NCBI RefSeq assembly: GCF_001905665.1
Contig: NZ_LIVX01000001.1
Location: 124,001 to 188,000, forward strand
Source: Streptomyces sp. CB02261
GTDB taxonomy: Bacteria; Actinomycetota; Actinomycetes; Streptomycetales; Streptomycetaceae
Length of the DNA: 64,000 nt
Direction of reading: 5' to 3'
Position 1 is the stretch's first letter, and each line of letters opens with the position of its first letter. The notes under the pieces are model-generated. The model did not search any database and was not told the DNA's origin. It saw only the letters and a list, made by a program, of their open reading frames with translations. Shown here one piece after another: positions 40,296 through 41,466 of this stretch. The translations under genes and the position numbers were made by a program.

Positions 40296-41303
40296 TCAGG
40301 CGCCGATGCTGTCCTTCTCGGCTCCGTCGGCGTCGGCCACGCTCTCGGCGGCTTCCCGCTCAGCCTGCCGCTTGGAGGCGATCAGACTGGTGATCGTGGT
40401 GATGACCAGGACACCGCCGATGAACGCCAGCGAGAACGGGATGGAGATCTCCGGGACGTGCACCCCGGACTCGTGCAGGGCGTGCAGCACCAGCTTCACG
40501 CCGATGAAGCCGAGGATCACCGACAGGCCGTAGCTGAGGTGGACCAGCTTCTTGAGCAGGCCGCCGATCAGGAAGTACAGCTGCCGCAGACCCATGAGGG
40601 CGAAGGCGTTGGCGGTGAAGACGATGTACGGGTCCTGGGTGAGACCGAAGATCGCCGGGATCGAGTCGAGGGCGAAGAGGATGTCCGTGGTGCCGATGGC
40701 GAGCATGACGACCATCAGCGGGGTCATCACCCGCTTGCCGTTGGCCCGGATGAACAGCTTGGTGCCGTGGTACCGGTCGGCCACGCCGAACCGCTTCTCG
40801 ACGCTCTTGAGGAGGCGGTTCTCCTCCCAGTCGTCCTCGTCCTCGTCCGCGCGCGCCTCCTGGATGAGCTTCCAGGCGGTGTAGATCAGGAACGCGCCGA
40901 AGATGTAGAAGACCCACGAGAAGCTCGCGATGATCGCGGCGCCCGCCGCGATGAAGATCGTGCGGAGCACCAGGGCGATCACCACGCCCACGAGCAGCAC
41001 GCGCTGCTGGAGGTGGGAGGGGACCGCGAACTTCGCCATGATCAGGACGAAGACGAAGAGGTTGTCGACACTGAGCGACTTCTCGGTGATGTATCCGGCG
41101 AAGAACTCGCCGGACGCCTGGCTGTTGCCGGAGAGCAGCAGGCCGAGGCCGAAGAGCCCGGCCAGCACGATCCAGACGATCGTCCAGATCCCGGCTTCCT
41201 TGACCGACACGTCATGGGGCTTGCGCCCGATGAAGAAGTCGGCACCGATCAGGGCAGCGAGACCGAGAATGGTCACTACCCACAGGGTCATAGAAACGTC
41301 CAC
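40296..41303 (-). CDS. terC: TerC family integral membrane protein
   Basis: 335 residues from GTG 41303 (GGAGG 5 bases upstream). It has about nine helices with the conserved acidic residues of the family: ALIGADFFIG, SLSVDNLFVFVLIMAKFAVP and TTDILFALDSIPAIFGLTQDP. An acidic loop (ARADEDEDDWEENR) faces the cytosol. TerC relatives export Mn2+ or assist metal loading of secreted proteins. The leader is a yybP-ykoY manganese riboswitch, which supports a role in Mn2+ homeostasis here. Two TerD-family genes lie just upstream on the same strand. Confidence 0.93.
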   Translation of the reverse strand: MDVSMTLWVVTILGLAALIGADFFIGRKPHDVSVKEAGIWTIVWIVLAGLFGLGLLLSGNSQASGEFFAGYITEKSLSVDNLFVFVLIMAKFAVPSHLQQRVLLVGVVIALVLRTIFIAAGAAIIASFSWVFYIFGAFLIYTAWKLIQEARADEDEDDWEENRLLKSVEKRFGVADRYHGTKLFIRANGKRVMTPLMVVMLAIGTTDILFALDSIPAIFGLTQDPYIVFTANAFALMGLRQLYFLIGGLLKKLVHLSYGLSVILGFIGVKLVLHALHESGVHVPEISIPFSLAFIGGVLVITTITSLIASKRQAEREAAESVADADGAEKDSIGA

Positions 41304-41466
41304 TGCGCCTCCGGCGTCGTACGGCTACTGATCAGCGTCGTCGCTGCCGGAGGTCTCTTCCACCCGGGGACGGACGATCGCCGCCGGGCCGACGCCCCGG
41401 GATCGGATCCATGATGATCCGTCCGTACTGACGGGTACGCCGCGCTTGGGGAGTACTCCCCTCCGC
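41304..41466 (-). promoter_or_regulatory. yybP-ykoY manganese riboswitch in the terC leader
   Basis: The aptamer runs on the minus strand from about 41466 to 41346. It has the class hallmark GGGGAGUA (41461-41454) in the first loop region and GUGGAAGAGACCUCC near the 3' end. Closing stem P1 is GGAGG (41464-41460) with CCUCC (41353-41349). An internal stem CCCGGGG/CCCCGGG closes a distal arm. Downstream, CCUCCGGC (41353-41346) is perfectly complementary to GCCGGAGG (41315-41308), which contains the terC ribosome-binding site. Metal-bound P1 would use the CCUCC strand and free the site, an ON switch for translation. Rfam family RF00080 is the expected match. Confidence 0.8.

Follow-up and report, generated by a model that had tools for sequence, protein, structure and literature searches.

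The analysed window is a stretch of 64,000 nucleotides of Streptomyces sp. CB02261 (NZ_LIVX01000001.1, positions 124,001 to 188,000) and carries on its minus strand terC (40296-41303, GTG start), a gene for a TerC/Alx family metal homeostasis membrane protein, with two genes containing a TerD domain upstream of it. The terC product matches Pfam TerC (PF03741, 1.3e-54) and NCBIfam TIGR03718, 'R_switched_Alx' (376 bits, cut-off 246). Here, we describe the leader of this gene (41466-41304, minus strand), which has a yybP-ykoY-type aptamer and ends in GCCGGAGG (41315-41308) and CGCA, just before the GTG start at 41303. An ATG at 41291 was rejected as the terC start in favour of this GTG, which lies 4 nt from GGAGG at a position where relatives also have a start codon, GTG or ATG. 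Direct repeats (CTTTACC, CTTTACC and CTTGG, with a period of about 11 nt) are found on the minus strand at window positions ~41520-41470, upstream of the presumed -10 region, and recur at the corresponding position of most Streptomyces loci; they resemble a binding site and are a candidate target of a regulator of the PhoP or SARP type.

Read along the minus strand, the leader opens with the 5' strand of the switch helix P1.1, CGGAGG (41465-41460), which holds the same GGAGG (41464-41460) as the SD core; this GGAGG is invariant in 57/57 Streptomyces leaders. It is followed by the 5' strand of L1, GGAGUA (41459-41454), a part of the metal-binding core that is invariant in 83/83 actinobacterial elements and identical in E. 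coli alx and mntP, and by the 5' strand of P1.2, CUCC (41453-41450), whose partner is GGAA (41361-41358), with a C.A at the loop end. The P3.1 5' strand CGGCG..CCC (41442-41433; partner 41398-41390) shows compensatory changes in 7/8 pairs and leads into L3, GUCAGUAC (41432-41425), for which the consensus in the Streptomyces structure (57 non-redundant leaders) is GUCA(A/G)UAC. Aligned by eye, the A at 41429 appears to correspond to the invariant Mn-ligating adenosine of the class (A41 in L. lactis, A48 in X. oryzae), which binds Mn2+ via N7 in solved structures (PMC6754395). P3.2 and its loop, of variable length (41424-41400), contain covarying pairs (columns 53-57 with 119-123), and the P4 hairpin (41388-41363) has compensatory changes in 3/3 core pairs. 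The L1 3' strand GAGA (41357-41354) reads GAGA or AAGA in 126/126 distinct loci, and GAGACC on this side of L1 is also present in E. coli alx, E. coli mntP and X. oryzae. Directly after it, in CCUCCGGC (41353-41346), the P1.1 3' strand CCUCCG doubles as an anti-SD. The alignments show P1.2 followed by P3 without an intervening P2 hairpin, and the leader thus departs from a four-way junction; P2 is not obligatory, as a three-way-junction member has been described in S. pneumoniae mgtA (PMC9495176).

The original prediction had placed GGAGG at 41464-41460, CCTCC(GGC) at 41353-41346 and GCCGGAGG at 41315-41308, and all three lie there. It had also proposed an 8-base pairing of CCUCCGGC with GCCGGAGG, the sequestered strand; the two are perfect complements, and the pairing includes the terC ribosome-binding site with its SD GGAGG (41312-41308). 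P1, predicted as GGAGG/CCUCC, is in fact 6 bp in length, CGGAGG/CCUCCG. Two further hairpins emerged from folding. A CAGCG-ACGA-CGCUG hairpin (41346-41333) arises in the P1-constrained fold, once P1 has formed, and a possible competing 5' hairpin of a ligand-free form, GGGGAGUACUCCCC (41461-41448), is seen in the unconstrained fold. A 5' hairpin of at least 4 bp is possible in 126/126 distinct loci, a count made without a shuffled control. This hairpin, built from L1 and the pyrimidines after it, could assist the OFF form, and the requirement for P1.2 pairing may by itself explain the complementarity.

Assignment of the leader to the yybP-ykoY class was to be checked with Rfam RF00080, which gave no match on the window, nor on the leader at E values up to 10, and had no hit over its cut-off in 395 Actinomycetes genomes (Rfam 15). 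This model also leaves the validated Mn2+ riboswitch of E. coli alx unreported even at E 1, and scores E. coli mntP at 41.6, under the gathering score of 45. Because validated alx is missed as well, we attribute the failure to the model itself and do not treat a match to it as defining the class; RF00080 was rejected as a membership test for being too narrow. The sole Rfam match on the leader, a weak wcaG hairpin (13.8 bits, E 3.6), was rejected as chance. Only Streptomyces terC-leader aptamers, 51 in all, went into a covariance model of our own, R1. In its own genome R1 finds one site, the terC leader (E 2.9e-17), and it matches 219/395 Actinomycetes genomes. It also picks up E. coli alx, with 34 bits (E 9.6e-6 in 16 kb), and scores the leader of GDT1, another gene of this Streptomyces strain, at 44 bits. 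The predicted class is supported by the recovery of alx, which provides homology to a validated member, and of the GDT1 leader, and by the conservation of L1 and L3. In 83 elements the two sides of L1, GGGGAGUA (5') and RAGACC (3'), are invariant or more than 98% conserved, GUCA of L3 with its putative Mn-ligating adenosine is 100% conserved, and GGGGAGUA, GUCA and AGACC as a set are essentially invariant. The downstream gene is of a Mn2+ homeostasis type (TIGR03718).

The GDT1 leader contains a second yybP-ykoY-type element of this genome (L001, G000:C14:242295-242382, minus strand), upstream of a gene for a GDT1 (UPF0016) divalent cation antiporter. It scores 25.7 bits with RF00080, below the cut-off, and, by eye, its P1 3' strand is taken up in a long hairpin of which the SD is not obviously a part. 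Another element, L002 (G000:C3, positions 1-104), is a glycine riboswitch aptamer, with 33.2 bits against a gathering cut-off of 32.

The same riboswitch architecture might respond to another divalent ion or to a combined Mn2+/pH signal, given that alkaline pH, besides Mn2+, elicits a response from E. coli alx and mntP (PMC9603457) and that Ca2+ is another ligand of the mgtA aptamer of S. pneumoniae (PMC9495176). However, the Mn-coordinating adenosine and the loops are unchanged in the actinobacterial elements and the target gene belongs to the TerC/Alx family, and we regard a signal other than Mn2+ alone as distinctly unlikely. Mn2+ is the probable ligand of the terC leader.

For comparative analysis, terC leaders of 80 Streptomyces loci were aligned, of which 79 retain the element; 57 non-redundant leaders with the aptamer were the source of the consensus structure. 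A wider set comprised 80 further R1 sites, 79 of them outside Streptomyces (the exception is L124), and terC lies directly downstream of the R1 site in 74/80. Among 83 elements, 97.2% of cells in aptamer pairings hold standard pairs and compensatory changes occur in 18/24 pairs, with a covariation score of 0.534, compared to 0.185 for shuffled and at most 0.112 for slid controls; the alignment behind these values was fitted to the model and leans toward it. Covariation stands behind P1.1, P1.2, P3.1, P3.2 and P4. For P1.2, the loci show five clean pair sets, CUCC/GGAG, UUCC/GGAA, UCCC/GGGA, CUUC/GAAG and CCUC/GAGG, and P1.1 occurs in the wider Actinobacteria as GGAGG/CCUCC, GAAGG/CCUUC, CGAGG/CCUCG and CAAGG/CCUUG.

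Several loci of these sets depart from the common arrangement. The aptamer is mostly deleted in the terC leader of Streptomyces sp. TRM49041 (L062), which retains AAGAGACCUCCGGC and GCCGGAGG; terC in this natural deletion should be without a sensor. At L125, L128, L137, L142 and L191 (family f36, genus g67), the aptamer precedes a gene other than terC, encoding an uncharacterised protein of ~270-290 aa whose C-terminal region is hydrophobic and rich in glycine, for which (member L125) no Pfam or NCBIfam match was found; this gene is a candidate for a new Mn2+-regulated gene. At L172 (family f34, genus g51), the aptamer and a CCUUGUG/CACAAGG anti-SD helix precede a gene for a small PGPGW-family (PF09656) membrane protein in place of terC.

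One sequence proves nothing about the pairing of P1 with the ribosome-binding site, because the 8-mer CCTCCGGC is common in GC-rich DNA (20 occurrences in the window vs 15 expected) and the leader does not fold markedly better than its shuffles. Its folding energy is not unusual (z -1.47 and -0.88), and single-sequence folding energy was discarded as uninformative. Both strands of the anti-SD helix are kept in 57/57 non-redundant Streptomyces leaders with the aptamer, where variation occurs at one pair only, with one compensatory pair. This is too little covariation within the genus, and the comparison was therefore made class-wide. In the wider set, the P1 3' strand and the SD make a helix of 7 bp or longer in 59/80 loci, compared to a mean of 29.7 and a maximum of 39 in 500 trials in which P1 3' strands were exchanged among loci. 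When only loci with CCUCC are considered, such a helix is found in 36, against a swapped mean of 26.0 and a maximum of 32. Relatedness remains in this swap control, a concern that is answered by the spread of the pairings over families.

Four triples of P1 5' strand, P1 3' strand and SD were found, each in at least two families: GGAGG/CCUCC/GGAGG, GAAGG/CCUUC/GAAGG, CGAGG/CCUCG/CGAGG and CAAGG/CCUUG/CAAGG. The SD strand is GAAGG in families f11, f14 and f35, CGAGG in f17, f28 and f37, and CAAGG in f34 and f36. Some of these types may have come from terC paralogues and not from independent events. In 4 loci from 4 families, P1 reads CGAGG/CCUCA, with its last pair broken, and the SD partner is UGAGG, which keeps the anti-SD pair. 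Because UGAGG follows CCUCA despite the broken P1 pair, the SD pairing is itself under selection. Past the SD, complementary triplets lengthen the helix, for example GGU/ACC, GGC/GCC, AAC/GUU, GAC/GUC and GGA/UCC. A helix of 7 bp or longer is missing from roughly one in four of the wider loci, and from most members of family f36. The covariation anticipated for both helices is thus borne out, with P1 5' strand, P1 3' strand and SD changing together, and the two helices, which share a strand and are both conserved and covarying, are mutually exclusive as proposed. The design is not particular to Streptomyces and occurs across ~21 actinobacterial families.

The expression platform appears to be translational, because the start codon lies 3-14 nt after the SD helix in 137/139 loci and a U-run follows this helix in only 1/139. 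No intrinsic terminator was found by a scan of the terC leader, and 138/139 loci are without a U-run past the helix, in agreement with the earlier view that none is needed. A genuine aptamer could nevertheless exert its control mainly on transcription, if Rho, or a pause at the SD hairpin, ended terC mRNA left untranslated when the ribosome-binding site is closed, with the SD pairing acting through coupling. The SD hairpin is computed to be very stable, and E. coli mntP combines translational with transcript-level control (PMC7838592). Such control would still work through the same SD pairing, however, and the missing terminator and U-runs speak against it; we consider it unlikely that transcription is the main level, and favour translation initiation.

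When the leader was folded with and without P1, the mean unpaired probability of the SD rose from 0.01 in the free fold to 0.45 with P1 enforced, as expected from the original prediction. Nearest-neighbour energies, which ignore metal and tertiary contacts, favour the SD helix in 143/145 loci, by a mean of 9.5 kcal/mol. With a gap of ~10 kcal/mol in favour of OFF, equilibrium switching by Mn2+ alone is doubtful, and the decision is therefore probably made co-transcriptionally, before the SD strand emerges. The large preference for the SD helix could also be read as a constitutive damper of translation, or an RNA-stability element, standing beside a degenerate aptamer with no ligand switching, and the terC leader of TRM49041 has kept the SD helix strands while losing the aptamer core. 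Yet the aptamer core is otherwise invariant, the helices covary over ~20 families, and the P1 strands covary too and not the SD helix alone, all of which makes a constitutive element very improbable compared to a switch.

Taken as a whole, the terC leader is very probably an alx-type yybP-ykoY Mn2+ riboswitch that acts on translation initiation as an ON switch, with a probably co-transcriptional decision. In the absence of Mn2+, CCUCCGGC would pair with GCCGGAGG, burying the ribosome-binding site and keeping terC off. Mn2+ would bridge L1 and L3 and hold P1.1 (CGGAGG/CCUCCG) closed, leaving its 3' strand unavailable and the ribosome-binding site free, and the TerC/Alx exporter would be made. 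The choice between the two helices would fall during transcription, while the SD strand has not yet emerged. We infer the ON direction from the stabilisation of the switch helix P1.1 by Mn2+ in X. oryzae (PMC6754395); E. coli mntP, in which Mn2+ switches on translation initiation of an exporter (PMC9603457), provides a parallel.

With the P1 3' strand serving as the anti-RBS, three strands (P1 5', P1 3' and SD) coevolve, and their joint changes demonstrate a switching mechanism at the level of sequence with unusual clarity. A more general reading is that an alx-type Mn2+-export switch of this kind extends throughout the Actinobacteria, with a kinetic co-transcriptional choice, possibly helped by the 5' hairpin, and is missed by Rfam; we hold the case for it to be evenly balanced. 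If true, a translational Mn2+ switch that uses a minimal platform would be widespread in Actinobacteria, antibiotic producers included, and their control of manganese would become directly testable. Since RF00080 misses most actinobacterial members along with alx, surveys based on it underestimate the class.

The class itself is already known in actinobacteria, as an older Rfam version predicted it in the leader of C. glutamicum terC (cg2157; RF00080, 49 bits), where the 5' UTR seen by RNA-seq begins at the yybP-ykoY element (PMC3890552). In the accessible text of that report the element is listed as a prediction only, and its mechanism is not given (PMC3890552). The original prediction held that the platform may be undescribed in Streptomyces, and we found no description of a fused, terminator-free platform in Streptomyces or other actinobacteria in the open papers searched; the apparently novel parts are this platform and its breadth. 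Like the terC leader, E. coli alx has the L1 (GGGGAGUA/GAGACC) and L3 (GUCA) core, precedes a gene for a TerC-family exporter (Alx) and aligns to R1 without a separate P2 hairpin. In alx, too, a downstream strand competes for the P1 3' strand (CCUUGCC with GGCGAGG), but this competitor is distinct from the ribosome-binding site, found ~60 nt further downstream, whereas in terC competitor and SD are one strand. The L1/L3 core is likewise common to E. coli mntP, whose P1 3' strand ACCAUAU, unlike that of terC, has by eye no long complement at the SD. In the yybP-ykoY riboswitches of X. oryzae and L. lactis, Mn2+ stabilises P1.1, the 3' strand of which is otherwise invaded (PMC6754395), as proposed for terC, but the invader is a transcription terminator and the aptamer a four-way junction, both unlike the terC leader. 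Exclusive pairing around the ribosome-binding site is a known type of platform (Barrick and Breaker, 2007, PMC2258182), in a survey that leaves ykoY unmentioned. In SAM-I cases with OFF logic, the ribosome-binding site itself lies in P1, whereas P1 of the terC leader carries the anti-RBS, which would give ON logic.
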